From positions 1-25,416 of IMG/VR virus record IMGVR_UViG_3300008114_001466: 25,416 bases of DNA, one strand, 5' to 3'. The stretch's first letter is position 1; each line of letters starts with the position of its first letter. Below are positions 1 through 15,293 of the stretch, one piece after another. Under the pieces are notes generated by a model. It ran no database searches. It was not told where the DNA came from and was given only the letters and a program-made list of their open reading frames with translations. Both the position numbers and the translations under genes were made by a program. The DNA is from a virus.

Positions 1-1577
1 TTGTCAACGTCATAGAAACGGAACACAGGCAACCCAAGAACACCATACAACGAATTCAAGAAAATCTTCTGAATATGTTGGCGTCGGTCATAATAGTCTG
101 CCATTTCCTTGTTTCCTTCGTTGACATACTTCTTCATCGTGTTCTTATATTCGACACGCTGACTAAACCACGTATCAAGAACTTCTGGAATAATACCCTT
201 CTTATCGTTCGTATACAGTACACCATTCGAACTTACCGATAGATTATTATCCGTAATGAATTCCATAAATGTATCGTAGTCCATTTCCATAGAAGAGTCT
301 GTACCCTTTTCCTCAACAACATAAGCAGTAATCTCTTTACGGAAATGTTGTTCCATATTCCAGTTCCGAACAAATCCAATCTTCGTTTCTGGGCTGATGT
401 TAAGACTCATAATGATGGATGGATACAGCGATTGCAAGTCGAGAGAATATACCCAATCATACAAACCAGGTACCGGCTCTTTCACATATGCACCGATAAA
501 CCCTTCCTCTCCACGGTCAAGTGCTTCCATCTTCTCACGACTATCTTGCGGTTTATCCGTCACGATAATTCCCTTACGATGAAGGTAAGTGACGATGGTG
601 CCTTCGAGGAATCGTGACGACATTGGATAGTCCTCATACGGCACGTGTCCGATGTGACAAATACCACGCACAAGTTCGATGAGCTTCAACTTCTTGTCAA
701 GCTCAACAATGATACGCACGTCTTGTAGGTTATACTCAATAAACTTATCAAGGTCATCTCGAAACAATTGATCGAGAGAACCTTCATATGGAATCTTACC
801 CATATTGACTTCAATGCGACCAATTGTATCAAGTCGATAGTTTGGTTGCTGTGTATAAGTAAACTTCTTGTATAGGTCAAGATAGTCCAGCGAACTTACT
901 CCAGCAATTCTATATTTTTCCTGTCGTTCGGAATATTTTACCTTACCGATTGGGGACAGCCGATTGGCAACAGAGGGACCGCAGACTTGTCGGATACGAT
1001 TATACAAATATGGTACGTCGAAATAGTTACTATTCCAACCGGTGATGATTGTGGGTTGAATTTCTTCGTACAAGGAGATGAACTTATGGAGTAAGTCAAC
1101 TTCCGTAGGACAGAATATCGTATCCACTTCTTCCGTCATTCTATTGTCGTACAACTTTGTTGTATCAAGTACGAACACCGTGTATTTGTTTGTTGTTGGA
1201 TCATATGCAGCAATTGAAGTGATTTCATTATTAGGCTTATGAATATTTGGAATACCATTTGCCATCGACACCTCAATATCGAAAAACATCACAATGTTCC
1301 CTTCGGACGGCGTATCCTCGTCTAGATAAACATCCGTCAACACCCGTGTTTCTTTTGGCAAGTCACTCTCAAACACGTTTGGGTGTCCACGCATAAATCG
1401 GCGTGTCTTACTCAAACGTTCACCCGTCATACTTATAAACTTGCCCTTCGGGTCTTTTACATATGCATAATTGAAATCTGCCCACGGCAAAATAATCAAC
1501 CCCTGTTTATCGTCCCAAATATAAACAGTAGGTGATTCATCACCGTGCATATCAACATATATGTTTTTATAAGCCAT
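1..1577 (-). CDS. Family B DNA polymerase, T4 gp43-like, C-terminal part cut by window edge
   Basis: Replicative DNA polymerase with 3'-5' proofreading. The reading frame is open from ATG at 1577 to the left edge, giving 525 residues. The exonuclease motifs are visible: FFDIEVS (D100, E102), a GWNSNYFDVPYL block for Exo II, and YNLQDVRI for Exo III. Polymerase motif A reads SLDLQSLYPSI with D380, and motif B is KIFLNSLYG from K504. The frame breaks off at FYDVD, before motif C (DTD), so the catalytic site is incomplete only because of the window edge. T4 gp43 has about 900 residues, so roughly 40% is missing. A CGAGG ribosome site lies just upstream of the ATG. A hairpin terminator separates this gene from the metabolic genes before it, so it probably has its own promoter, which I could not pin down. 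The family is certain; a gp43 ortholog is inferred from the T4-like neighbours. Confidence 0.95.
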   Translation of the reverse strand, partial: MAYKNIYVDMHGDESPTVYIWDDKQGLIILPWADFNYAYVKDPKGKFISMTGERLSKTRRFMRGHPNVFESDLPKETRVLTDVYLDEDTPSEGNIVMFFDIEVSMANGIPNIHKPNNEITSIAAYDPTTNKYTVFVLDTTKLYDNRMTEEVDTIFCPTEVDLLHKFISLYEEIQPTIITGWNSNYFDVPYLYNRIRQVCGPSVANRLSPIGKVKYSERQEKYRIAGVSSLDYLDLYKKFTYTQQPNYRLDTIGRIEVNMGKIPYEGSLDQLFRDDLDKFIEYNLQDVRIIVELDKKLKLIELVRGICHIGHVPYEDYPMSSRFLEGTIVTYLHRKGIIVTDKPQDSREKMEALDRGEEGFIGAYVKEPVPGLYDWVYSLDLQSLYPSIIMSLNISPETKIGFVRNWNMEQHFRKEITAYVVEEKGTDSSMEMDYDTFMEFITDNNLSVSSNGVLYTNDKKGIIPEVLDTWFSQRVEYKNTMKKYVNEGNKEMADYYDRRQHIQKIFLNSLYGVLGLPVFRFYDVD

Positions 1578-2483: not shown

Positions 2484-2860
2484 TATATAATCTCACTATG
2501 ATTTCTGAAGGCTGTGTCCACTGCTTCTTGTATAAAACCTAACATTGCGGTTTCATCACCACCACCTTCTCTTGTATGTATTTGCTGACCTTTATAGAAC
2601 ACTTTGAAATGTGGAACTCCTTTTACTCCCCAAGTTTCTAAGCAATAATCTTTTTGTTCTTGTGGTTCCCATGCATTTATTCTGTAAAACTTTATGTTGG
2701 CATTAAGTTTATCAAAATACGACGCAGCTGATTCATAATGAGGCATTGTAGCTTTACACGGACCACATGTTGCTCCGAAGAACATAAGAACATGCATCGC
2801 ATCATCTGCGGGAACGCCTGATTCAGGCTGCATGTCTTTCATTGTTATTTCTGTAACCAT
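2483..2860 (-). CDS. Thioredoxin-like protein with CGPC active site
   Basis: A thioredoxin-fold disulfide reductase with the classic CGPC site in an FFGATCGPCK context and the cis-proline in GVPHFKVF. I start it at ATG 2860 rather than the ATG at 2872 four codons upstream, because GGAG lies six bases before 2860 and nothing comparable precedes 2872. From 2860 the protein has 125 residues. Its first 38 bases overlap the end of the Vsr-like nuclease gene in another frame. It is the second of two thioredoxins in this block, and a likely partner is the C-terminal cysteine pair of the NrdJ reductase encoded upstream. Confidence 0.88.
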   Translation of the reverse strand: MVTEITMKDMQPESGVPADDAMHVLMFFGATCGPCKATMPHYESAASYFDKLNANIKFYRINAWEPQEQKDYCLETWGVKGVPHFKVFYKGQQIHTREGGGDETAMLGFIQEAVDTAFRNHSEII

Positions 2861-3254
2861 AACTGTCTCCATTTTTGTTTATCAACTTCTTTATTTTGTT
2901 TCTAACTGATTTGGTGTTTCCGTTTATTTCCGATTCCCACAACGATAAAAACTTAAACCCTAGTGATTCAAAATGAGTTTTTCTACACTCATCTCTCTTC
3001 CATATTTGTGCTGCAGTTTTCTTTTTACCTCTATTGAAAAAATCATATGAGTATTTCTGTGGATTGCAATGCCAGAAATCTCCATATACTTCTATAATAT
3101 ATTTATCTTCTACTAAAAAGTCAACATTGTATTTGTCAATAGAAGTTTGAATCTTAAAAGAGACATTCATCTCTTTTAGCATATTATAAATTTTAGTTTC
3201 TATGTTGTTGAGAGAACTAATAGACTGTTTTTTAAGTTTGGGCTTTCGGCCCAT
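2823..3254 (-). CDS. Vsr-like (EDxHD-type) endonuclease, probable free-standing homing nuclease
   Basis: A 143-residue protein resembling the very-short-patch repair endonuclease fold. From my memory of E. coli Vsr, E19 and D45 have the same 26-residue spacing as E25 and D51. YGDFWH (57-62) matches HGCFWH, so H62 would equal H69. D88 in IWKRDE matches D97, and SLWESEI matches the IWE block. The Vsr T63-H64 pair is replaced by V56-Y57, as I would expect in phage relatives rather than true mismatch-repair enzymes. The N- and C-termini are lysine-rich. The gene lies between two thioredoxin genes, overlaps the next one by 38-50 bases, and looks AT-richer than the operon (about one third GC by eye). 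These features fit a homing endonuclease that has moved in; a repair role is the alternative. Confidence 0.75.
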   Translation of the reverse strand: MGRKPKLKKQSISSLNNIETKIYNMLKEMNVSFKIQTSIDKYNVDFLVEDKYIIEVYGDFWHCNPQKYSYDFFNRGKKKTAAQIWKRDECRKTHFESLGFKFLSLWESEINGNTKSVRNKIKKLINKNGDSYGYRNNNERHAA

Positions 3255-3645: not shown

Positions 3646-6210
3646 TCATCCCATCAATTCTTTTATGTTAACAAAGGTAATTCCAGAATCAATTAAAGAC
3701 TGATTGTTCTTTTTGATTTCTTCAAAGAAATTCCATGCCAACACTAAAATAATATCTGGTTTATCCTCGTTAATCTTATCCTTTGAGAAGATAGGAATCT
3801 TCACACCTGGAACATACTTTCCATGCTTTAGTGTGTTGTCCTCAACGATGTAAGAAATTTCTTCATTTGTCAATCCGAAATAGTTTAAAGCTGTGGTTGC
3901 TTTCGCTGGTGCTCCATATCCAACAATCTTTAAACCGTTCTTCTTCATCATCTTAACATTTTTAACGATGTTGTTTTTTGCCGATTCCACTCTCTTGGCA
4001 AAGTTAACATACGTTTCATATTTGTCAAGACCACATTCCAATTCTTGTGCTAAAAAGTATGAAACACTTGCATCCACATTCTCTGGATTCTTTGCGATAT
4101 AGACTCGGATAGAACCACCGTGAGTATTCACGTGCTCAACCTTATAGACTTTATAACCCAATATATTAAAGAAGTTATTGAGTGACAACACACTCCAATA
4201 ATTGAAGTGTTCGTGATAGATGTTATCGAACGTCAAATCTTGTATTGTGTTTAATAGGTATTGTACTTCAATAATCAACGAACCATCTGGCTTAAGTAAC
4301 GTAAATGCGGCGTTTGCCATTTCCTTCAAGTCGTTCGCATGAGCAAATACATTTGATGCAGTAACTACATCGGCATGACCGTGAGTACTAACGATTTCAT
4401 TTGCTACTCCTGTATTGAAGAAGGAACATATTGTAGGAACTCCTGCGTTTCGTGCCAACTCTACAATATTTTCAGCAGGTTCTACACCCAAAACTCTTAC
4501 ATTCTTTTCCATAAATGGCTTCAAAGCAATACCATCGTTCGAACCAATATCAACGACCAACGACTCTTCTGTCAAATTAAACTGCTTCGTGTATGAATCG
4601 GCTGCTTGTACGAAATGTTCTCTAAATGATTTTGATGTTGACGACACATACAGATAATGCTTGAACATTTTTTCTGATGGTACTGAATATGATAGCTGAC
4701 AGTTATGACTGTCTGGACTATACATCAACTCTAGTGGAAACATTTCACACGGTTCTTCTGATGAGTCTAGTAGGTTGTTTGCTAACGGTGACAGTCCCAA
4801 CGATAATACCGGCTTGATATTATCGTTTCCCGTAATTCTATCTGATGTCTTGTAATCCCGTAACAGTTCATCTCTAAACTTCTCGTCTACCAGTACGTAT
4901 GGAATCGTGTGTGTAACGCCATAGTTTTCATGCTTACGTTCACCACGAACCAGATTTAAAAAGATAGAGTCTTTAGTAAACACCATTGTATGTGCAACAT
5001 TTGGACGGATAACAGACAAGTCACCTTCATTAATTACCTGTGTTTCAATCTTTGCGTTTGGTACAGACAAATCTTTGATGACACTAATGTACTGACCCTT
5101 AATGAGTAAGCACTTCTGCTCTTGTACAGGATGATAGTGATTTGCCCGAACAGATCCTGCCTTTGATTCAATGTATCCAATCAAATTAATAGGTTCTGTT
5201 AATTCGTAGTTACTAATCTTTCCGCGTGAATCAACATATTCATCACCACCACGAAGAATATATTCCAATCGTTCAGGCTGTTCACGTTCCGACCAGTTGG
5301 TTACCATCTCTTTAATAGCGGATGTAAGTTTATTTTGGAATGTAAATCCCGTTGATAGCAACTTTTTGTTTGATAACGTATATCCTACGTTTGGAATCTC
5401 ATCATCCGTTTCAATGAGATTGGTATCTGGTTCAATCGATTTGACAATTTCTGCTACCTGCTTAACTGTCATATTCTCATCAGTTAGATGGAAGATTTCA
5501 TTCTTGATGTCACTACGTTCTTCCATAAACTTAAAAGAACGCACAACATCGTGAATACAAACCAACGACTTTAATTGTACGCCGCGGCCGAATAGTTTCA
5601 ATGTAGCATTTTGCGATGCCATCTTTGAAAAGAGATTTGGCATGATACCGATACGCATTGTATCCGTAGAGTATCCATATACCGAACCCAATCGTAAGAT
5701 AACATAATCCTTGCCAGATGATTTAATATCAAGTTCATTCTGGTATTTACTACGAGAATATGTTAATACCGGAGTAGGTTGCTCTGTTTCTTCAATATCA
5801 AACTTTGCGTCGGGGAATCCTTCGAACACAACGTGTGTGGAAGGGAACACAATCTTACAATGTGAAGGAATGTGTTTCAGAATATTCAGCGTACCCTGAA
5901 TTGCAGTACGCTGAATCTCGTTATCCTTTTCTGTATTTGATTCGGTTTTCGTATAAGCTACATCAGTAATACCGGCGAGATGGTGAACAACATCTGCATC
6001 CTTTAAAATTTCAGACATTTTTTCGTCGTCCAAAATACTACATTGAACGAAGTCGATTCCCCAATCACGTAATTGCTTAACACGTTCTGAAACGAATCTA
6101 TTGTCGGTAACTACAATTTTCTTAAATCGTGCTTCACCGGAATATAACTTTGTCAGTTCCGACCCGATATATCCCAACCCGCCGGTAATTACTACTTTCT
6201 TATGTCCCAT
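3646..6210 (-). CDS. Three-domain sugar-nucleotide enzyme: SDR reductase/epimerase, cupin, C-methyltransferase
   Basis: A fusion of 854 residues from ATG 6210. The ATG at 6216 has GAGG only two bases upstream, whereas 6210 has it at eight, so I prefer 6210. Residue numbers here count from 6216. Residues 1-310 are an extended SDR domain with GGLGYIG (12-18), a Ser/Thr in PSTH near 126 and YSRSK (Y153, K157). Residues 320-445 are a cupin with GSVRANHYH (H360, H362), E366 and a PNVAH block with H409; SDR plus cupin is the layout of CapF-type enzymes. Residues 467-856 resemble NDP-hexose C-methyltransferases: SAM motif VVDIGSNDG (554-562), HEHFNYWS, THGGSIRVY and YGAPAKATTALN. The N-terminal zinc knuckle of that family is reduced to single cysteines, so it may bind no zinc. 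The likely role is making a branched or modified deoxysugar; no glycosyltransferase is visible here. Confidence 0.88.
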   Translation of the reverse strand: MGHKKVVITGGLGYIGSELTKLYSGEARFKKIVVTDNRFVSERVKQLRDWGIDFVQCSILDDEKMSEILKDADVVHHLAGITDVAYTKTESNTEKDNEIQRTAIQGTLNILKHIPSHCKIVFPSTHVVFEGFPDAKFDIEETEQPTPVLTYSRSKYQNELDIKSSGKDYVILRLGSVYGYSTDTMRIGIMPNLFSKMASQNATLKLFGRGVQLKSLVCIHDVVRSFKFMEERSDIKNEIFHLTDENMTVKQVAEIVKSIEPDTNLIETDDEIPNVGYTLSNKKLLSTGFTFQNKLTSAIKEMVTNWSEREQPERLEYILRGGDEYVDSRGKISNYELTEPINLIGYIESKAGSVRANHYHPVQEQKCLLIKGQYISVIKDLSVPNAKIETQVINEGDLSVIRPNVAHTMVFTKDSIFLNLVRGERKHENYGVTHTIPYVLVDEKFRDELLRDYKTSDRITGNDNIKPVLSLGLSPLANNLLDSSEEPCEMFPLELMYSPDSHNCQLSYSVPSEKMFKHYLYVSSTSKSFREHFVQAADSYTKQFNLTEESLVVDIGSNDGIALKPFMEKNVRVLGVEPAENIVELARNAGVPTICSFFNTGVANEIVSTHGHADVVTASNVFAHANDLKEMANAAFTLLKPDGSLIIEVQYLLNTIQDLTFDNIYHEHFNYWSVLSLNNFFNILGYKVYKVEHVNTHGGSIRVYIAKNPENVDASVSYFLAQELECGLDKYETYVNFAKRVESAKNNIVKNVKMMKKNGLKIVGYGAPAKATTALNYFGLTNEEISYIVEDNTLKHGKYVPGVKIPIFSKDKINEDKPDIILVLAWNFFEEIKKNNQSLIDSGITFVNIKELMG

Positions 6211-6231
6211 ATACATAACCTCTAAATTGTT

Positions 6232-8082
6232 TTATTGTACTTCACATCCACCACCACCACAAGCAACTTCACCTTGTAGATTGGTGTTATCTGCTGTTTC
6301 TACAACCTTCCGTAAATCGATATTGTGGAGATGTGACACCAATTCTTTATATTCTGCTTCGCTAATATCTTCGAAGGGTGCCTGCATATAAGTATGGTCT
6401 GCAAATGGGAGGACACTTAATGCCGTAAAGTTTTCACGATTTTCCCACATCCACTCACCAACACCTTCCCACTCATCTGGCTTAATAGTGACGGTAACGG
6501 ATACGTTATTCTTGTTTGCTCCACCACGATGACCAGGCTTCACCCATTCCTTCCAAACCTTTGATACACGCTTCAAAAGATCAAGTGCCGTTTCTTGGCG
6601 TGTTACCGCGCCTTCTGGAGCACGTTGTGGAATACTGATAACCGCCTGTTGATTTGGCTTAAAGAATTCATCTTCAAGAATCTCTGGATGGTTTTCAATC
6701 AAGTAGTTGTAAATACTTTCATTCTTACCAACACGGATGCGACGAATGTAGAAATCGTTATGCCATGCGTGAATACCAGATGATGTCCCTAGAACTAACG
6801 ACGAAGTTCCCTCCGGCTTTACTGTAGTACATCTGGATGCACGGTTCGTTCCAATTAGCTCCGCAACTCGGGCATTTTCCTCCTTCACGATGTTTGCCGC
6901 GCTCTTCATATCCAAGTTCAGAACAGCACCCGCTGCAATACCCGTCATACTCACTCCGATGAGAGCTTCCTTTTCCGTTGTTCTCTTCCATATATCTCTC
7001 AAATAGTGAAAGTTAGTATATGATGCTTGAAGTGTTCCAATGAATGCTGCTGCCTTCGCACGTGCGTTAAAATCATCTTGGTCTTTAACGTCCCCAGCAT
7101 TAATCGTAGTGAGGTTGCAGAATTGGAATGAACGAAGTGAAATTTCTGCACACGGATTCAATCCCCACGATGGGTCATTTGTGAAGAAGAAGCCAGGTTC
7201 ACCAGAACCAGACATTTCAATCTTCTTCCAAAGTTCCAAGAATACTTCCTTCTCTACCTTATGACGAACGATAACCGCACTGTTGTTTGAACGACCACGT
7301 TGTGGATTGGTTTCCCACCAGTTACCAAACTTACAGGTCAACATATCATCGTCATCTAAATCAAACAACGAAATCATTGCGGAACGACGAATACCACCCG
7401 ACAATACTGCATCAGCGATATAACAAAGAATGTCATGCACTTCGAGTGTGGTAAGTTGTTCACCGTTTTGCTTACGGTCGAAAATCTTTTGAATATTATG
7501 AAGCGCATCCTTGAGCGGTTCTGGACCAGGTGCCTTTCCGCCACTCGTAATCAACATCGCACCCTTCGGTCGAATGTCAGAGAAATCATAAACAGGCATT
7601 GCCTTACCACGCATGTATGCGGAGACAAGTACCTTGACTGCATCCGCCCATCCTTCGATGCTGTCACCAACAAGGTAACGACGAGTCTTGGTGGGTTTAT
7701 TGATTTCTGGCAACTTCTCTACGTGGGCACGTTGTACGGAATATCCTACACCGGTACCAGAAAGTAGAAGGAACATTACTTCACTAAATGCATCTGGGTG
7801 GTCGATTGGTAGGAAACAGCAGTTGTACAACCGAGCGTTATTAATTTCAATTGGCTTACCAGCAAACTGTAGTGAACGCATAGATGGGAGAATCTTTTTG
7901 TCATATACAAATTTGTAAGCTTCTTCAATTTCTTTTTCTAAATTTGGGAACTTTTCTAAATGCATCTTCTTGTTTCGATCAACAAGCTCCTTCCACGTTT
8001 CCCGTCGTTCCTTATTTGGAAGGTATTTTGAGTATTTCATAAATGTCGTGATTTCCGACAAAATCTTTGATTCTAGCAACAT
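6232..8082 (-). CDS. nrdJ: Class II adenosylcobalamin-dependent ribonucleoside-triphosphate reductase
   Basis: Reduces ribonucleotides to deoxyribonucleotides using adenosylcobalamin, with no separate radical subunit. I start at ATG 8082 (616 residues), which has GGAG nine bases upstream. A longer frame begins with GTG at 8097 but has no ribosome site. Numbers below use the ATG. NPCAEI holds the thiyl cysteine C311 and E313. C322 in SFQFCNL lies 11 residues later, as C419 follows C408 in the Lactobacillus leichmannii enzyme, and the NCC pair near 88-89 supplies the other redox cysteine. The C-terminal CGGGGC (C608, C613) matches the swinging pair C731/C736. Length and motifs favour the monomeric RTPR type over class I NrdA. 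Two thioredoxins downstream can re-reduce it. Confidence 0.93.
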   Translation of the reverse strand: MLLESKILSEITTFMKYSKYLPNKERRETWKELVDRNKKMHLEKFPNLEKEIEEAYKFVYDKKILPSMRSLQFAGKPIEINNARLYNCCFLPIDHPDAFSEVMFLLLSGTGVGYSVQRAHVEKLPEINKPTKTRRYLVGDSIEGWADAVKVLVSAYMRGKAMPVYDFSDIRPKGAMLITSGGKAPGPEPLKDALHNIQKIFDRKQNGEQLTTLEVHDILCYIADAVLSGGIRRSAMISLFDLDDDDMLTCKFGNWWETNPQRGRSNNSAVIVRHKVEKEVFLELWKKIEMSGSGEPGFFFTNDPSWGLNPCAEISLRSFQFCNLTTINAGDVKDQDDFNARAKAAAFIGTLQASYTNFHYLRDIWKRTTEKEALIGVSMTGIAAGAVLNLDMKSAANIVKEENARVAELIGTNRASRCTTVKPEGTSSLVLGTSSGIHAWHNDFYIRRIRVGKNESIYNYLIENHPEILEDEFFKPNQQAVISIPQRAPEGAVTRQETALDLLKRVSKVWKEWVKPGHRGGANKNNVSVTVTIKPDEWEGVGEWMWENRENFTALSVLPFADHTYMQAPFEDISEAEYKELVSHLHNIDLRKVVETADNTNLQGEVACGGGGCEVQ

Positions 8083-8130
8083 CTTGCTATTCTCCACATC
8101 GGTTAAAGTTTATAGGTTCTAATAAGTATA

Positions 8131-9519
8131 TCACTCTTCGTCAGAAAAATCGCTGTGTAATTCATTAAATTTCTTCGCCAACGTTTTCTTTAACATACTC
8201 TCTCCAGCCTGCATTTGCTTCTTCAACAAAATACCCTTTGAGGAGTTTTCATCATATATTTCAATCTTACCGAGGCTAGTATTCATGTATACGGGAAGCG
8301 TAATACCGTCAGCCCCAAATCGATTCTTCATTAAGTGTGCACGACCTGTGTGATTGGCTTTATCTTCTAGCTTACGGGATAGGGAGATTACGAGGTCGGC
8401 GGTCATAATCTTATTGTAGGATTCGGAAATCTTATCGGCCTGAATGATGTCATCCTGAATACTAGAACGTTGAGTTTGTGAGGCCGTCCAACACGGAATA
8501 CCCAACTCACCACTCATTCCACGAATTTCTTCATAGATGGCACCCAACTCTTGATAACGGGCATCTGCTCTATCCACAGACCGCATCAAATCAGCGTAGT
8601 CAATCAACATAATATCCGGCTTCATCTTATTACCGATTAAGTGTTCAAGATGTGCTCGAAGTGTGTGTACAGTTACACTACGTGCAGGATAATACTTGAT
8701 AATAATATCGCCAGGTATGTTATCTACCATATCACGCACTTTATCTGGATGGCTTGTGATACTACCAGGTTCGATTCCCGTAAAGATGGTATCATATCGA
8801 AGCCCAACGTAATTTTCATTTAATTCAAGTGTATAGTGTACAACACGTTTTCCAGCTTTAGCAGCATTTGCTCCAATCGTAGCAAGCGCCCAACTCTTAC
8901 CAATACCAGAAGGTGCGGCAATGACTCCAAGCTCTCCAGCAGCCAATCCACCACCCGTGAACGCATCAATAGCGTCCCAACCCGTTGGTACACAAATACG
9001 AGAGACGCCAGCAAGACGCATCGCAATATCTTCTTTCCAATTATGTCCGATATTACGAGGTTGTCCTGCTCGGAGTGCCCCATCAATAATATTTTTGATT
9101 TCACCATATTGACCAACTTGCAAAAGATCAACAGATTTTACAATCGCAGACTTTAATGCTTGATTCTTTGCAAAGTCCAAGAAACTATCCTTAACGTATT
9201 CCAAATCATCATCGTTCTTTCTTTGGAATGCGGTACGAAGTTGCTCTTTTACAGCAACCTTCAAAACTTCATCCTTTTCCTTTTCTAACTCAAGCTTAAA
9301 AACCTCAAGTGTTGGAAGGGACTTGTAATTACCAAAATAATTTATAGTTTCTTCGACAATCCATTTACCAGCATCATTCTCAAAAAAGTTTGGATTCAAC
9401 ACATCAAGTGATTGCTGCAAAAATTCAGTAGATGACAAAATACATGCCATTACCTTTGCTTGAAATGAAGGACCAAACTTTGCTAGATTGTCTACGTTCG
9501 TATCATGCTGTGGAGTCAT
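8131..9519 (-). CDS. Replicative DNA helicase, DnaB/T4 gp41-type
   Basis: The hexameric 5'-3' replicative helicase, RecA-like SF4. In 462 residues, the N-terminal helical domain (1-160) is followed by the ATPase domain. Walker A is PSGIGKS (203-209), the catalytic Glu follows in HYTLELNE, Walker B is LIDYADL (305-311), and SASQTQR-type motif H4 appears as ASQTQR (346-351). The tail is lysine- and acid-rich. The ATG lies 17 bases inside the end of the upstream 5' nuclease gene, so the two are probably translationally coupled. No primase is visible in this window, so the gp61 partner must be elsewhere. Confidence 0.95.
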   Translation of the reverse strand: MTPQHDTNVDNLAKFGPSFQAKVMACILSSTEFLQQSLDVLNPNFFENDAGKWIVEETINYFGNYKSLPTLEVFKLELEKEKDEVLKVAVKEQLRTAFQRKNDDDLEYVKDSFLDFAKNQALKSAIVKSVDLLQVGQYGEIKNIIDGALRAGQPRNIGHNWKEDIAMRLAGVSRICVPTGWDAIDAFTGGGLAAGELGVIAAPSGIGKSWALATIGANAAKAGKRVVHYTLELNENYVGLRYDTIFTGIEPGSITSHPDKVRDMVDNIPGDIIIKYYPARSVTVHTLRAHLEHLIGNKMKPDIMLIDYADLMRSVDRADARYQELGAIYEEIRGMSGELGIPCWTASQTQRSSIQDDIIQADKISESYNKIMTADLVISLSRKLEDKANHTGRAHLMKNRFGADGITLPVYMNTSLGKIEIYDENSSKGILLKKQMQAGESMLKKTLAKKFNELHSDFSDEE

Positions 9520-10555
9520 TGTGGAACCTATTTAATGGTATAAAATTCTGAGCTATCCAACTGTCGTAATGTTGGAAACCTCCTAGTAACTTATTCTTCA
9601 TCATCAACTTTGTCAAGTCGTATTTACGCAACTCAACAGTATGATTATGAAACATATTCGCAACTTTTAAACGTGCATCGTTTGACATAATTCCTTCATG
9701 CAAGTTCATTAATACTATATTACGTTCAACTATATCTTTATTACCTAAAATGTTTTGTATCATCTTGGGTACTTTCTTTTCATTTGCATATTTTTGTTCA
9801 ATAAAATCAATAGAGATGGTTGCCGATGGATCTGCGATTTCTGGAATATACTTCTTTAATGTAGTTTCTCCAACGCCTTTTACTCCATCAATGTTATCAC
9901 TCTTGTCACCGTTTAATGCACGGAAGAAGTGAAAGTGTGCGGGATGAATACCATAATCTTCCAAGATAACATCCACATCAAATGTTTTCTTTTTAACAGG
10001 ATTATATACCTTGACGTTTTCACTTGCTAGCTGAAAGAAGTCTTTATCCGTTGAATAGATAATACTCTTCCCACCTTCTTGTGTAACCAGTTGTGAAAGA
10101 TATGCAATCACATCGTCTGCTTCCACGTTATCCAACGCAAGAATTGTCAACGGTAAACATTCTAACATTTCTATCAGAGTGACCAATTGCCACTTCATAT
10201 TTTCTTTTTCTTGCTCATCCGTTGTTAAATCATATGCACGATTCAAACGCACTGGTGGCTTTCGGTTTGCCTTGTACTGTGGGTATATCTTACGTCTGCG
10301 TTGACTTCCACCTTTCCCGTCAAACACGACAACACAACGTGTCGGTTTAAAGGTACGGATGGCAAGACCAAGACTCTTAAGAAATCCCATCATTCCACCA
10401 ATATGATTACCATCTTCATCCATCGAAGGAACAGCGGCATAAGAACGTATGAATAAATTCATCGCATCGATTAACAGGACATGGGAATTATATCCCATGC
10501 CCTGCTCGTCGTTTTCAAACTTCATATTTTGAAATATATCTTGTAAGTTAACCAT
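9503..10555 (-). CDS. FEN-family 5'-3' exonuclease / RNase H (T4 Rnh-like)
   Basis: A structure-specific 5' nuclease of the PIN/FEN family, expected to remove RNA primers from Okazaki fragments as T4 RNase H does. Its 350 residues show the metal-binding acidic set: D30 in LLIDAMN, D79 in VVFDGKG, E145-D147-D148 in VEADDVI, D170 and D172 in STDKDFF, and D217/D220 in NGDKSDN. The helix-hairpin-helix follows in DGVKGVGETTLKKY. The C-terminal third (250-350) is less conserved and may contact the SSB. The start overlaps the previous small gene by eight bases, and the gene sits directly before the helicase. T4 RNase H and the Pol I 5' domain are the closest known types; I cannot choose a finer subfamily. 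Confidence 0.93.
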   Translation of the reverse strand: MVNLQDIFQNMKFENDEQGMGYNSHVLLIDAMNLFIRSYAAVPSMDEDGNHIGGMMGFLKSLGLAIRTFKPTRCVVVFDGKGGSQRRRKIYPQYKANRKPPVRLNRAYDLTTDEQEKENMKWQLVTLIEMLECLPLTILALDNVEADDVIAYLSQLVTQEGGKSIIYSTDKDFFQLASENVKVYNPVKKKTFDVDVILEDYGIHPAHFHFFRALNGDKSDNIDGVKGVGETTLKKYIPEIADPSATISIDFIEQKYANEKKVPKMIQNILGNKDIVERNIVLMNLHEGIMSNDARLKVANMFHNHTVELRKYDLTKLMMKNKLLGGFQHYDSWIAQNFIPLNRFHNDSTA

Positions 10556-10769
10556 TTAGTAATTGCCTTGTGGTAGTACTTTTTGTTTCAGGAGAATATT
10601 TCCATCCGAACAAAAGTCTTACCATAAATTTATGAAACCAATTTGGATGCTTCTTATATACTGGAAATCGTGTACCACCGATATCCCAATGTCCCACATG
10701 CAACGCTGGAACAATAGCGGCATGTGAGAAATTGGAATAGGTCCGTGTATTATTCGTCGTCTGATGCAT
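10548..10769 (-). CDS. Small hypothetical protein between uvsX and the 5' nuclease
   Basis: I do not recognise this 73-residue protein. It fills the gap between uvsX and the nuclease exactly: the ATG lies 20 bases inside the uvsX end, and the stop overlaps the next start by eight bases. That arrangement argues that it is real. The middle is basic and aromatic (HPNWFHKFMVRLLFGWKY), with a hydrophobic patch that could be an amphipathic helix. The N-terminus is rich in Thr, Asn and His. A GTGAG seven to eight bases upstream may be the ribosome site. Its place among replication genes suggests a helper role, but no function can be assigned. Confidence 0.6.
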   Translation of the reverse strand: MHQTTNNTRTYSNFSHAAIVPALHVGHWDIGGTRFPVYKKHPNWFHKFMVRLLFGWKYSPETKSTTTRQLLNG

Positions 10770-11859
10770 CTGCGATACTCACTGCTTCAGGATCAAACTC
10801 ACTCTGATACTTCATAATTAACGAATCACAAATCTCGTTGTAGAGTAGTTCCTTACGTTCCATATCTGATTCAAGGAATCCTGCGAACTCCTTCGATTGG
10901 AATTTGGTTTCTTCACCCGTTTCAGGATCTTCATAGGTGTACCACGCACCAGCTTGCTTCACAAGCTTCAAATCCTTCATCATCTTAAGCCACGCACCCG
11001 TATCATCAATACCACGATTGAAGTAAATCTCAAACTCAGCAGTACGATGCGGCGGTCCCAAACGATTCTTCACAATGTTTGCTTTCACCTTTACACCAAT
11101 TACATCACCCGATGAGTTATTAATCTTTCCCATCAAATTCAATCGGAGACGAGTCGAAGCATGGAACGCAATCGCCTTACCACCCGAGGTTGTCCACGGG
11201 TCAGAGAATGCCATAGCGTTGAGCTTCTGACGGAGTTGATTGGTAAAGACGAGTGCAATCTTTTCTCTGCCAAGTAGGCCGGTAATCTTTCGCATCGCCT
11301 TACTGATGATGATAGCCTTGTCCGTTGCATACCCATCCTTACCGAAGTCGGCTTCCATTTCTTTCTTCGTCGAAGCTGCGGCAACAGAGTCCACGACAAT
11401 CGTAACCAACTTGTCCTTATCCTTTCCAGAACGGACTTTTTCAATAATTGTAGTAATTGCATCAAAGATTTCCTCAACAGTCTGGAGATGAACATAAACC
11501 AGCTTGTTCGTATCAATCCCAACTGCACGGAAGAACTCTGGATTGACTGCGGTTTCTGTGTCAATCAGAACACCAACACCACCGCGTTTCTGTGTGTTTG
11601 CAATGAGCTGTGCACCGAGTAGAGACTTACCACTACCTTCCAATCCCGTCAATTCGGTAATACGACCAACAGCGATACCACCATGCGGACGATTACTAAT
11701 AGCAACGTCAAGCATCGTAGCACCGGTAGAAATAAAATCTGTAAAGTCGGTAGGCGTTTCTTCACGACCATCAAGGAAGAATGCAATCTGGTCGCTGTCT
11801 TTAATGTGAAAACGCAAGGGTACCCCACAAATATAGTAGGGTACCACCTGCGTTGTCAA
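10750..11859 (-). CDS. uvsX: UvsX/RecA-family recombinase
   Basis: Strand-exchange ATPase for recombination-dependent replication and repair. It has up to 369 residues. Walker A is GLEGSGKS (72-79), a Glu follows in IDTETA (E102), Walker B ends at D157 in VVDSVAA, and the L2 DNA-binding region includes TNQLRQK and TTSGGKA (223-229). The C-terminal tail is acidic (ASDDE). The start is uncertain. The longest frame opens with TTG at 11859 with no ribosome site. Other candidates are GTG at 11847 and TTG at 11817, the latter with GGGG five bases upstream; there is no ATG before residue 49, which is inside the fold. A promoter-like element and a strong hairpin cover this region. The gene lies five bases after the SSB stop. 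Confidence 0.93.
   Translation of the reverse strand: MTTQVVPYYICGVPLRFHIKDSDQIAFFLDGREETPTDFTDFISTGATMLDVAISNRPHGGIAVGRITELTGLEGSGKSLLGAQLIANTQKRGGVGVLIDTETAVNPEFFRAVGIDTNKLVYVHLQTVEEIFDAITTIIEKVRSGKDKDKLVTIVVDSVAAASTKKEMEADFGKDGYATDKAIIISKAMRKITGLLGREKIALVFTNQLRQKLNAMAFSDPWTTSGGKAIAFHASTRLRLNLMGKINNSSGDVIGVKVKANIVKNRLGPPHRTAEFEIYFNRGIDDTGAWLKMMKDLKLVKQAGAWYTYEDPETGEETKFQSKEFAGFLESDMERKELLYNEICDSLIMKYQSEFDPEAVSIADASDDE
11819..11845 (-). promoter_or_regulatory. Inverted repeat at the 5' end of uvsX
   Basis: A 10-pair stem (one G-U) with a seven-base loop TATATTT. The arms are GGTACCCTAC and GTGGGGTACC on the minus strand. It lies 14 bases after the first base of the TTG start, or just before the alternative TTG at 11817. 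It also brackets the possible -10 element of the candidate uvsX promoter. It could act as RNA, controlling ribosome entry, or as DNA, as a repressor site. Confidence 0.6.
11830..11859 (-). promoter_or_regulatory. Candidate promoter at the start of uvsX
   Basis: TTGACA (11859 to 11854), an 18-base spacer, then TATATT (11835 to 11830), five of six to the -10 consensus. It shares the 10-mer ACACTTGACA and a CCCTAYTA stretch with the ssb promoter. The -35 box overlaps the first possible uvsX codons, so it can only serve uvsX if translation begins further in, for example at TTG 11817, or if it serves downstream genes. Not proven. Confidence 0.45.
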
Positions 11860-11864
11860 GTGTA

Positions 11865-12647
11865 TTAGTTAAATACTTCGTCGAATTCGTCAATCATATC
11901 TTTGACTGACGTTGACTTCTGCGTAGTCGCAGACTTTGTTGCTGTCACGGACTTTGGTTCGTCCTTAGCGACAGGCGCCGATACCGTTGCCTTACTATCA
12001 GGGTCAAGATAACGCTCGAGAGCGACCTTAAGCTCCTCATAAGTGGGTTCCTTAAAGATTGCACGAAGGTCGGGCTGATTCTCAAGGCATCCCTTGATCT
12101 TGTCAGCGGAATCCGAAAGCGGAGTCTGGTTCGGCTTTGGACGAACCATCGTCTTGGCGAAGTTCGTGTCGGACTTCTCCTGTGGGATATACTCAACCAC
12201 AATATCACGACCATTCTTTACGTCTGTGATGTCGCCGTAATCGGGGTCAGCGATGATAGAAAGAAGTTCCTGATAAACCGTCTTACCGAATGACATAAAT
12301 CGAACACCCTTCTCTTCCTCACCACGAACGACGATGGGAACAAAGGTACGGAGCTTCGGACGGAAAGGACGAGCCTGTGCGTAATCGTCTTTAGTACCTC
12401 CCGACGCAATCTCCTCAGCGAATTCCATAATCGGATCGCGATTACCATACGAGGTCGGGGAAAGATAGGTCTTGTTACCTAGATAATGAAAATACAGTTC
12501 AGCAAAAGGATTTTCCTTGTTTTCCTTCCACGGAACAATACGAACGACCGTCTTACCTTCGGTCGGCTTCCAAAGTGCTTCTGAACGTTCACCCTGGCGA
12601 TTAAACTGGTTAAGTTTAGCTTTTAGTGCGGCAATGTTTAGACTCAT
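11865..12647 (-). CDS. 32: Single-strand DNA binding protein, T4 gp32-like, without the zinc site
   Basis: Coats single-stranded DNA at the fork and in recombination, and contacts polymerase, helicase and recombinase. The call for this 260-residue protein rests on layout. It has a basic N-terminal segment (LKAKLNQFNRQGERSE), an OB-type core (residues 20-200) with FRPK and FVPIVVRG blocks, a Ser/Thr/Ala/Lys-rich linker (220-245) and an acidic C-terminal tail (DMIDEFDEVFN), as in gp32. The gene order ssb-uvsX fits too. T4 gp32 binds zinc through one His and three Cys; here the only cysteine is C187, so the site is missing. The start has a strong ribosome site, AAGGAG seven bases upstream, and its own promoter. 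It looks more GC-rich than the surrounding genes, and high expression is expected. Confidence 0.85.
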   Translation of the reverse strand: MSLNIAALKAKLNQFNRQGERSEALWKPTEGKTVVRIVPWKENKENPFAELYFHYLGNKTYLSPTSYGNRDPIMEFAEEIASGGTKDDYAQARPFRPKLRTFVPIVVRGEEEKGVRFMSFGKTVYQELLSIIADPDYGDITDVKNGRDIVVEYIPQEKSDTNFAKTMVRPKPNQTPLSDSADKIKGCLENQPDLRAIFKEPTYEELKVALERYLDPDSKATVSAPVAKDEPKSVTATKSATTQKSTSVKDMIDEFDEVFN

Positions 12648-12735: not shown

Positions 12736-13560
12736 TTAGCGATTATTTATCCAAAATACTCTTACTTTAATTTTTGATTGTCGGCCTTCTGGTAATTGAT
12801 TATTAAGACCGTGAAATTCTTCAATCTTACTACGAAATAAATATACTAACATTTCATTAGTATTCAAATTTAATACGATTTGGCTTGTGGTACTCATTTC
12901 CGCTGTATCACGTGCCATATTTAACATAGAATTTTTTGGGTAGAACGGTTGTCGAAGAGCACGCGCTATATCGTGATAATCATTAACTGCTGATAACTGT
13001 TTTTCTGCACTTATCTTACGAATCTTTGAAGATAAATATTTTATACCTTCTGTATATCCTGCGTCGGTATATAAGTGCCCGTGATTGGTACGAACAGTAA
13101 TATCTTCCATATTCAATGGTTTGATGCTCACCGCATGTCTTGACGTATTTTCTATGACCGCTCCTTGTCGAGCGTTTGCTACAATCGTGTGTCCCTTGAT
13201 GCCACCGTCAAATCCAGCCGCAGACTTTATGGCTCCTTTTAAATCTTTGTGACCTAACGCAGCCATAACGCGTGGAGCGTCTTGGGATTTTTGTCCAGAC
13301 TTTTTAACTAATTGTTTTTCTTTTTCGTCAAATCCTACCATCAATGCGGTATTTAAAATACCAATACCGTGTTCATTCATACCTTCAACCCATCCAGTTG
13401 TCATATCATGAAATAAACACACCTCGGTATTATCCACCAATCGTCGAACAATTTCAACTTGTGGGTTGTATGATCTATCACGATTCTTTGCTATAATGAC
13501 ATTAGAACCGATTGTAGATGCGGCTACAATACATTCCCCAAGATGTGATGGTGTGTTCAT
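12736..13560 (-). CDS. Cysteine-type Ntn hydrolase (choloylglycine hydrolase / acyltransferase-like)
   Basis: A 274-residue N-terminal-nucleophile amidohydrolase of the group that includes bile salt hydrolase, penicillin V acylase and C45 acyltransferases. C10 in GECIVAAS would become the N-terminal nucleophile after autocleavage of a nine-residue propeptide. AKNRD places D29 19 residues after C10, the spacing I recall for C2 and D21 in bile salt hydrolase. GMNEHGIGILNT (60-71) matches the GMNExGL...N block, and TNHGH near 158 is a typical later motif. There is no signal peptide, so it should act in the cytoplasm or be packaged. The gene lies six bases after the preceding stop and before the ssb promoter. 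The substrate cannot be read from the sequence; acyl amides, including acyl-homoserine lactones or lipid amides, are possibilities only. Confidence 0.75.
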   Translation of the reverse strand: MNTPSHLGECIVAASTIGSNVIIAKNRDRSYNPQVEIVRRLVDNTEVCLFHDMTTGWVEGMNEHGIGILNTALMVGFDEKEKQLVKKSGQKSQDAPRVMAALGHKDLKGAIKSAAGFDGGIKGHTIVANARQGAVIENTSRHAVSIKPLNMEDITVRTNHGHLYTDAGYTEGIKYLSSKIRKISAEKQLSAVNDYHDIARALRQPFYPKNSMLNMARDTAEMSTTSQIVLNLNTNEMLVYLFRSKIEEFHGLNNQLPEGRQSKIKVRVFWINNR

Positions 13561-13565
13561 ATGTT

Positions 13566-13967
13566 TTAACAGTCAATAATTTTAGATAATTTTGTATTAA
13601 TAGCCTTAAGTTTTCCGTAAGCTGTTACTAACACCATATTTTTTAACTCGGTCCAATCAATTTTGTACGATGTATCTAAAACGCCACCATTTTTTTGTTC
13701 TATCAATTTGTTGATTGCGTTTATAGTATAAATTGTATTTGTGTGCTTTTTTCTGTGTACTGAAATTGTTGACGGTGGTGGTGTTAACTTCAAGCTATCA
13801 CTCTTTGCAACGTTATACGTTAGAATGAGTTGTGAAGCATCTTCAACGTTTTCCAACAAATAGACTTTATTAAACATTAATTTATATGTAGCTTTTATGT
13901 CGTCTATTGTCTTTTCCAATCCGTCTACCGTTGTAAACGTACACAGTAGTTGGGTTTGTTCTTCCAT
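13566..13967 (-). CDS. Hypothetical protein, 133 residues
   Basis: I do not recognise this protein. It begins at ATG 13967 with AGG seven bases upstream (AATAGGTATAGAT). The N-terminal half is mixed helix and strand (DGLEKTIDDIKATYKLMF, LILTYNV). A proline-rich turn (TPPPST) precedes a basic HRKKH stretch and a helical C-terminal half ending in KLSKIIDC. No membrane segment or known catalytic motif is visible. It lies between the family A-type polymerase and the Ntn hydrolase, with a 51-base gap upstream that contains only AT-rich sequence. It is real by position, length and ribosome site, but no function can be given. Confidence 0.75.
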   Translation of the reverse strand: MEEQTQLLCTFTTVDGLEKTIDDIKATYKLMFNKVYLLENVEDASQLILTYNVAKSDSLKLTPPPSTISVHRKKHTNTIYTINAINKLIEQKNGGVLDTSYKIDWTELKNMVLVTAYGKLKAINTKLSKIIDC

Positions 13968-14018
13968 ATCTATACCTATTGAAAGAGAAATACTTCCAAT
14001 AAATATAATTTAGATATG

Positions 14019-15293
14019 TCAAAGTTCCTCTTTTAGAACATCATAATTGATTCCTGAATACAATCTTACTGGGAAGTTTTCTTGTTGTAGTATCTCCCGA
14101 ATATCGTGTTTTATTGTACTTATCTCGTCAGGATGGCAATCTAACAGAATTGCATCATAAGTGTAAAGAATCAATTTAGATTTCTTATCTTCAAGATATT
14201 CCAAAACACTTTTTAGTTTAGGAATTGTTTTTTCAAATTCATAACATTGGACAAAATAATTAAACAACTTATGTTCGGAAACATCTTGGTCTTGAACGTG
14301 AATTCGTCTTTTACTGATTGGTGCAACAAATCCTCTTTCTTGATAATCTGAATAAATACGGCGTGACAGTTCCTTAATACTTTTTAGTAGTGGAATGTCA
14401 GTTTCTACATCAGCACCATAGAGGATACTAAACGTGATTTGTTTACCTTCCTCATATTCTTCTTTTGTGAGAAAGTCTTTTTGATAATACTGCTTCGCCA
14501 AATACGTGTGAATTGGTTCGATTGGCATATCGATATTCATATAATGTCCAATCAATCTTAAGTGATATGCTTCAAAATCCATCTGCACTAGATTTCCACC
14601 AGCGAATCTACTTATAAACGCTGCACGACTGCCATCCGTTTTGTTTAACGCGGCAAAATTAATTTTTCCAAATCTGTTACTAGGTCTACCGGTCATAGTA
14701 TATGGATGATATTGTGAGTATACCAACCCATCTGTAATCAACCGACTTACCTTATCACCAAAATGTGAAATCAATAGCTTTTCATCTACAGCCAAACCAG
14801 CCGATTCAATTTTTCGTAAAACCGATACAGCAATTTTAATAAATGTATTTTCCATACCAGCTATATCATCTGCACCATTTAGTTTATGTAATATAGTGTT
14901 ATGATATTTTCTAATTACACTAGACCAGACTGTAATAGGAACTATTTTATTCACATCCTTTGTATTCTGAAACATCATATGCGTTTCTTTTACATACCAA
15001 GAAAATACATCTTCAATCTCTGGAAAAGACATATTTGCTACATAACCTAAAGTATTTATACGATCTGTGTGGAGTGTAAGAAATGTATTTTTAGGTACAT
15101 CGAATATTGGTGCATCTTGATGTGTAATAGATAATGTATAAAAGTCGCCATTAAAAAATGTATACCCAATGCATAACGTCGGATTAGACGCAGGATGTTT
15201 ATGGATATCACGAAAAATCGGGGTGCATAAATGCATTTCCCGATTCATTCGTTCAACCAATTCATCATACTGTTGTTTATGATTAATAACCAT
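14019..15293 (-). CDS. Short divergent family A (Pol I-type) DNA polymerase
   Basis: At 424 residues it is much shorter than Pol I. Residues 150-424 hold thumb, palm and fingers; residues 1-150 are not recognisable as an exonuclease. TGRPSNRFGKINF (201-213) with a following G and R-AF matches the Pol I TGRLSS...N block. Motif A is MDFEAYHLR: D239 aligns with catalytic D705, but E710 is replaced by H244. In motif B, K284, F288, Y292 and G293 are kept while R754 is replaced by Y280. KRRIH matches the GRRRY region. Motif C is TYDAILLD: D380 aligns with D882, while H881 and E883 become Y and A. Both catalytic aspartates remain, so activity is possible. The ATG directly follows the preceding stop, with GAGGGA as ribosome site. 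Its role beside the family B polymerase is unknown. Confidence 0.82.
   Translation of the reverse strand: MVINHKQQYDELVERMNREMHLCTPIFRDIHKHPASNPTLCIGYTFFNGDFYTLSITHQDAPIFDVPKNTFLTLHTDRINTLGYVANMSFPEIEDVFSWYVKETHMMFQNTKDVNKIVPITVWSSVIRKYHNTILHKLNGADDIAGMENTFIKIAVSVLRKIESAGLAVDEKLLISHFGDKVSRLITDGLVYSQYHPYTMTGRPSNRFGKINFAALNKTDGSRAAFISRFAGGNLVQMDFEAYHLRLIGHYMNIDMPIEPIHTYLAKQYYQKDFLTKEEYEEGKQITFSILYGADVETDIPLLKSIKELSRRIYSDYQERGFVAPISKRRIHVQDQDVSEHKLFNYFVQCYEFEKTIPKLKSVLEYLEDKKSKLILYTYDAILLDCHPDEISTIKHDIREILQQENFPVRLYSGINYDVLKEEL

Follow-up and report, generated by a model that had tools for sequence, protein, structure and literature searches.

The phage from which this DNA comes carries a second, short DNA polymerase, probably without proofreading, in addition to a family B enzyme. 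The protein, encoded in the window (the whole stretch of 25,416 nucleotides that was analysed), belongs to divPolA1, a kind already known from Yutin et al. (2024, Virol J 21:200, PMC11348598), whose text names it from 14 phages of 155-190 kb. Its residues, predicted fold and gene neighbourhood make it very probable that divPolA1 is an active auxiliary polymerase. Its role would tentatively be gap filling or maturation of Okazaki fragments together with the neighbouring 5' nuclease, a reading that we rank above a part in recombination-linked synthesis, the bypass of lesions or a changed choice of sugar. New here are the size of the family (at least 587 matching IMG/VR stretches vs the 14 phages described), a histidine at the steric gate and a tyrosine in motif C that are invariant in the nearer part of the family (absent from the 2024 text; its figures may show the His), and a constant small companion gene, orf133.

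Gene, predicted fold and exonuclease-like part of divPolA1

The family A-type polymerase ORF noticed in the preliminary description is real and lies on the minus strand (Table 1); the plus strand of the same interval has stops throughout. A Pfam profile search, one of the checks suggested there, matched the window protein to DNA_pol_A (PF00476) with an E-value of 5.7e-10 and 39.1 bits, above the gathering cut-off of 34.3, and phrog_17 (DNA polymerase) matched it with an E-value of 5.4e-16. An identical polA gene is found in six further IMG/VR contigs, with 0 differences over 1272 bases, which makes an assembly accident unlikely. The longest contig with the identical gene, G001, has 166,598 bases (completeness not stated) vs the 155-190 kb reported for divPolA1 phages. 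We also ruled out a decayed fragment, on the grounds of the open frame, a 68-row alignment with full-length homologues and low dN/dS.

Table 1. Features of the window discussed in the text
Feature	Coordinates	Strand	Basis or remark
divPolA1, short family A DNA polymerase, 424 aa	14019..15293	-	ORF, Pfam, PHROG, fold, residues
divPolA1 parts: exonuclease-like N-terminus, palm/fingers C-terminus			
orf133, small protein downstream of divPolA1	13566..13967	-	133 aa; conserved position
AAT (acyl-transferase)-like protein, lineage-specific operon member	12736..13560	-	weak Pfam match, 22.1 bits, below cut-off 23.2
gp32-like single-strand DNA-binding protein (SSB)	11865..12647	-	Pfam, PHROG
RecA/UvsX recombinase	10750..11859	-	Pfam, PHROG
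5'-3' exonuclease (FEN / T4 RNase H type)	9503..10555	-	Pfam, PHROG
DnaB/gp41-like replicative helicase	8131..9519	-	Pfam, PHROG
B12-dependent (class II) ribonucleotide reductase, adjoining helicase	6232-8097	-	Pfam
Family B DNA polymerase, first 525 aa, exonuclease part included	3..1577	-	runs off left contig end

An AlphaFold2 model of divPolA1 (68 sequences; alignment A2, 67 of the 71 usable polA loci plus the window) reached a mean pLDDT of 93.7 and a pTM of 0.91. Among the 50 Foldseek matches listed, the best in the PDB were Pol I large fragments, Pol nu and Pol theta (E 3.8e-17 to 1e-13), and VIA-align against the Bacillus Pol I large fragment gave a Z of 25.6 and an rmsd of 3.9 A over 394 residues at 16% identity. 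The structure prediction, also suggested earlier, thus points to a polymerase fold like that of Pol I large fragments, the match spanning residues 1-421 of the predicted model.

No exonuclease domain had been evident in the preliminary description, a statement that survives for the acidic active site, which is apparently missing, but not for the fold: the N-terminus of the model aligns with Pol I, and an exonuclease-like part is predicted to be present in shortened form. By sequence, too, the stretch before the palm is shorter (divPolA1 has been reported with a truncated thumb). Within residues 1-149, only two positions, D60 (as D or E) and D77, hold an acid in at least 90% of the 78 near-full-length members, too few conserved acids for what would be a working exonuclease site. 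Because the profile alignment with the E. coli enzyme is confined to the polymerase part and stops short of the N-terminus, we call the loss of the 3'-5' exonuclease, and of proofreading, likely and go no further.

Active-site residues in the nearer part of the family

Residue equivalences were checked against E. coli polA. They agree with the motif residues first listed (D239=D705, K284=K758, F288=F762, Y292=Y766, D380=D882) and with the four substitutions (E710 to H244, R754 to Y280, H881 to Y379, E883 to A381), so that in place of the canonical Pol I active site, with Glu at E710 and an H-D-E motif C, the window protein has His244 and Y-D-A. IMG/VR was scanned for relatives with patterns from motifs A and C, yielding at least 599 stretches, at least 587 of them confirmed relatives (stretches, not phages). 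The best 80 of the at least 599 were retained, and the residue counts accordingly describe the nearer part of the divPolA1 family. From 96 sequences with a polA match we removed the window, L003-L007 and three duplicate proteins, leaving 87 distinct members, 78 of which are at least 380 aa long. L108 and L109 are truncated and without motif A. All 87 were ranked by likeness to a query that already has the His and Tyr hallmark residues.

In these 87 distinct members of the nearer part of the family, Asp at the D705 site (D239), Arg at the R668 site (R203) and Lys at the K758 site (K284) are each found in 85 of the 85 members with the column, and Asp at the D882 site (D380) in 87 of 87. The residues described at first as lost are not a sign of decay, being themselves invariant or nearly so: His stands at the E710 steric-gate site in 85/85 members with the column and Tyr at the H881 site in 87/87, the E883 site holds Ser in 59 members and Ala in 28 (87/87), and the R754 site holds Tyr in 76 of 85. 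The F762 and Y766 equivalents are kept in 84/85 and 85/86 members, respectively. Since one search pattern contained the His, members outside the motif A pattern are its fair test: there are 18, two without the region, and the others have His in 16 of 16 cases. Another 43 members fit the motif A pattern without fitting that of motif C (a few of them entered through other searches), and all have the motif C Tyr. As a control, the regular PolA of Flavobacterium phage immuto, of Roseobacter phage CRP-3 and of E. coli have Glu at the gate site.

The constancy of this histidine, and the Glu kept by the ordinary enzymes, would fit an altered sugar selectivity, in which replacement of the steric-gate Glu lets the polymerase tolerate or use ribonucleotides. 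His is bulky, however, and may still exclude a 2'-OH, the F762 and Y766 equivalents are kept, and with a DnaG-type primase already encoded the enzyme would not have to make primers; we consider this quite unlikely. A bolder form, which we think improbable, would make divPolA1 a distinct type of enzyme across a large group of T4-like phages, its His gate and Y-x-Y-D-[S/A] motif C giving a relaxed or switched sugar choice with which mixed RNA/DNA strands would be made or lengthened at the fork, for example at RNA primers.

The substitutions at the E710 (His), R754 (Tyr) and E883 (Ser/Ala) sites could slow catalysis. According to the text of its description, phage Tt72 Pol, which naturally has Ser at the E883 site, is active, its S616A variant retains 76% of activity, and E389A, at the E710 site, leaves 35% (PMC9324360). 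The change at the E883 site is therefore no sign of a dead enzyme; the ordinary PolA of CRP-3 also has Ser there. Pairs of relatives above 60% identity gave dN/dS values of 0.05-0.23 wherever computable, which are rough, since in many pairs dS approaches or exceeds 1, and which point to purifying selection on the relatives of divPolA1; the window's own copies are mutually identical, and the nearest other relative, at 46-47% identity, is too far for dN/dS. A non-catalytic accessory or structural protein in which only the fold is kept would explain why several active-site side chains have changed. Both metal-binding Asp and the motif B Lys are nevertheless invariant in its nearer part, which a dead fold would not need, and this, with the low dN/dS of relatives, makes such a protein highly improbable.

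The replication operon and a proposed division of labour between polymerases

The genes follow one another in the order polA, orf133, (AAT-like), SSB, RecA, 5' nuclease, DnaB helicase and ribonucleotide reductase. Far from lying away from the replisome genes, as had been thought, polA and the SSB gene are 1,371 bases apart, in a conserved arrangement. Where at least 4 kb of downstream sequence was available, orf133 was found in 53 of 54 loci, SSB in 52, FEN in 48 and RecA in 45; with at least 6 kb, orf133, SSB and FEN were each found in 37/37 loci, the helicase in 36/37 and RecA in 35/37. RecA is recognised less evenly at least in part because the recombinase of some lineages is beyond the reach of the query: immuto, one of the two misses at 6 kb, has an annotated recombinase. 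A ribonucleotide reductase of the window type is present in 21 of these 37 loci. Upstream, with 5 kb in hand, a LysM-type baseplate ORF occurs in 44/45 loci and a 612 aa ORF in 41/45. The operon order recurs in the 484-kb phage LR756508, Microcystis phage Mel-JY01 and immuto. By this gene order, divPolA1 heads a cluster of replication genes conserved across diverse phages and presumably co-expressed as an operon.

Several side observations concern this region. The weak match of the AAT-like ORF, which sits between orf133 and SSB, is to acyl-CoA:6-aminopenicillanic acid acyl-transferase, and among the compared loci the ORF is seen only in identical copies and L092. In L006, a further copy of the phage, the RecA frame is split (13401-14613) while polA is identical, which may reflect either misassembly or a true deletion. 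By eye, a minus-strand ORF of 856 aa (3646-6216) looks like a fusion of an NAD-dependent epimerase, a cupin-like part and a SAM methyltransferase, and a small Vsr-like endonuclease (2823-3254, minus strand) lies between two thioredoxin-like ORFs.

The companion protein orf133 has a confidently folded model (pLDDT 94) that matched nothing in the PDB at an E-value of 0.001 or below; its one viral fold match is an uncharacterised protein of an uncultured phage. It has no Pfam or PHROG match at the thresholds used, and its profile found nothing significant among PDB sequences. In alignment A3 (59 of the 69 orf133 loci plus the window) an H-R pair and an N are invariant, residues that, at a guess, would fit nucleic-acid binding.

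The separate acquisition of polA, proposed in the preliminary description, finds no support in this synteny, in co-divergence or in the low GC common to its neighbours, on which grounds we reject a recent event of this kind. The gene is indeed AT-rich, as had been noted (33.2% GC), but orf133 (31.8%) and orf134 (33.6%) share this composition; the value is low and not extreme, 8 of the 112 phage ORFs of at least 150 aa being lower. PolA protein distances co-vary with those of orf133, SSB, RecA, FEN and helicase (rho 0.48-0.70; 0.49-0.70 without orf133), and permutations gave 0/200 for every pair, which shows only that the distances are not unrelated. Correlations among SSB, RecA, FEN and helicase are stronger (0.68-0.84), and for this reason polA may have undergone some exchange.

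The family B polymerase is complete in G001 (840 aa, with Pfam exonuclease and polymerase domains); its exo I, exo III and polymerase motifs were found by pattern and exo II by eye. The initial picture of a short, divergent PolA beside a T4-type replisome with an intact, exonuclease-bearing PolB is thus borne out. G001 also encodes two clamp-loader proteins, a DnaG-type primase, an SbcCD-like fusion and an ATP-dependent ligase. PolB is present in 4 of the 7 first-scan records, six of which share the window's own gene (none of the seven being demonstrably a complete genome), and in 10 of another 11 contigs with divPolA1 and at least 50 kb (the exception, G015, has 98.8 kb). Among four GenBank phages, Pfam detects PolB in Mel-JY01 and the 484-kb phage and none in immuto or CRP-3. 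No PolA besides divPolA1 was found in PolB-bearing contigs by a Pfam search that also missed two known divPolA1 genes. An exclusive pairing of divPolA1 with PolB was rejected: immuto has a regular PolA and no PolB by Pfam, and the text of Yutin et al. (2024) reports that in each divPolA1 phage a 'regular' polymerase, whether of family A, B or C, is encoded as well (PMC11348598). DnaG-type primase was found in 8 of 13 records, G001 included (one is immuto, the source of the query, and one a partial match; several of the records without it are contigs far short of full length). A primase role for divPolA1 is unlikely, primer synthesis by it being unnecessary where a DnaG-type primase is already encoded. 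GroEL was found in 4 of 13 records and not in the 166.6-kb G001, a contig that may be incomplete.

In the arrangement that we favour tentatively, bulk replication would probably fall to the family B enzyme, with its exonuclease, clamp loader and primase, while divPolA1, catalytically competent and without proofreading, would synthesise short stretches locally. Paired with the adjacent 5' nuclease, it would amount to a Pol I divided between two genes, which takes out RNA primers and fills gaps ahead of ligation, and it might also extend D-loops made by RecA. Primer removal and gap filling offer the simplest division of labour because FEN and divPolA1 between them correspond to the components of Pol I, and because the phage also has a distinct replicase with exonuclease as well as a primase, a clamp loader and a ligase. 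T4 argues against the Okazaki role, as its lagging strand is matured by PolB, RNase H and ligase; to our knowledge, T4 lacks a family A polymerase. A role in recombination or one linked to the helicase would suit the operon just as well, and FEN is not singled out by a conserved position next to RecA and SSB.

Recombination-dependent synthesis, in which divPolA1 would extend the D-loops of the phage RecA/UvsX and SSB and start late forks before PolB takes over, is possible but rather unlikely. Genes for a RecA-type recombinase and a gp32-like SSB lie downstream in most relatives, and polA-SSB is the strongest of the polA pairs in co-divergence (rho 0.697). Against it, RecA is recognised less evenly than FEN (45/54 vs 48/54 loci at 4 kb, at least partly a matter of query reach), and T4, as far as is known, carries out recombination-dependent synthesis with PolB alone.

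The few conserved acids of the exonuclease-like part and the reshaped gate and fingers residues would also suit translesion synthesis or damage tolerance, with damaged or modified bases being copied. A Mom-like DNA modification protein is encoded on the 166.6-kb contig of the same phage, G001 (L115:5676-6494, minus strand; Pfam Mom, 1.3e-44), with an N6/N4 DNA methylase near it (L115:13127-14032), and the annotation of immuto includes genes for 7-deazaguanine in DNA. We nonetheless find this role unlikely, as divPolA1 is placed in a core replication operon and ordinary polymerases usually copy such DNA modifications.

That a second polymerase is kept as first gene of the replication operon, whichever main family is used, suggests a replication step that the main enzyme does not cover, in a family frequent among IMG/VR phage contigs (at least 587 stretches). 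Its invariant His offers a sharp and cheap test of steric-gate residue function in family A enzymes. The presence of divPolA1 in phages with a named host, such as Flavobacterium phage immuto and Microcystis phage Mel-JY01, makes depletion or deletion conceivable.

Comparison with known polymerases

In their text, Yutin et al. (2024) describe divPolA1 with conserved downstream replication genes, the main palm residues kept and a truncated thumb, infer a replication role, an active polymerase and an inactive exonuclease, and place the regular polymerase near GroEL or GroES in all 14 phages (PMC11348598). Their main text nowhere uses steric, histidine, E710, ribonucleotide or Okazaki; their Fig. 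5 may show the His. Among the literature matches listed, the name divPolA1 appeared only in that paper and its preprint, no biochemistry of any divPolA1 was found, and those on a steric-gate histidine or E710 included no paper on this family; our search found no paper on Mel-JY01.

The window protein shares the divPolA1 traits of homology, an extra regular polymerase, downstream replication genes and conserved palm residues. We assign it to divPolA1 because its best annotated relative, gene 1 of immuto (tblastn, 31.6% identity over 76% of the query, E 3e-36; alignment A1), comes from the reference phage of Yutin et al.; the unannotated 484-kb phage scores higher. The immuto protein is similarly short (441 aa vs 424 here), its gene is followed by an orf133 homologue, SSB, recombinase, 5'-3' exonuclease and DnaB helicase, and its genome encodes a further regular polymerase. 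In immuto, however, that polymerase is of family A and lies beside GroES/GroEL, whereas here it is of family B; the second of the ORFs that separate polA from SSB carries no annotation there and is AAT-like here; and NrdF and NrdA stand where the window has a class II ribonucleotide reductase.

With the Pol I large fragments (Klenow, Bst, Taq), divPolA1 shares the predicted fold over residues 1-421 and the R668, D705, K758, F762, Y766, Q849 and D882 sites. It differs in having 202 residues before the TGR-block Arg vs 344 in Klenow (324-667, where we take Klenow to start at residue 324 of E. coli Pol I), in the replacement of E710 by His, R754 by Tyr, H881 by Tyr and E883 by Ala, and in the few conserved acids of its exonuclease-like part. 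The divPolA2 of barbaviruses is likewise, in the text of Yutin et al. (2024), a divergent PolA without exonuclease beside PolB, but it is described with variable neighbourhoods and an unrelated N-terminal domain (PMC11348598), whereas the divPolA1 studied here combines an N-terminus resembling that of Pol I with conserved replication genes around it.
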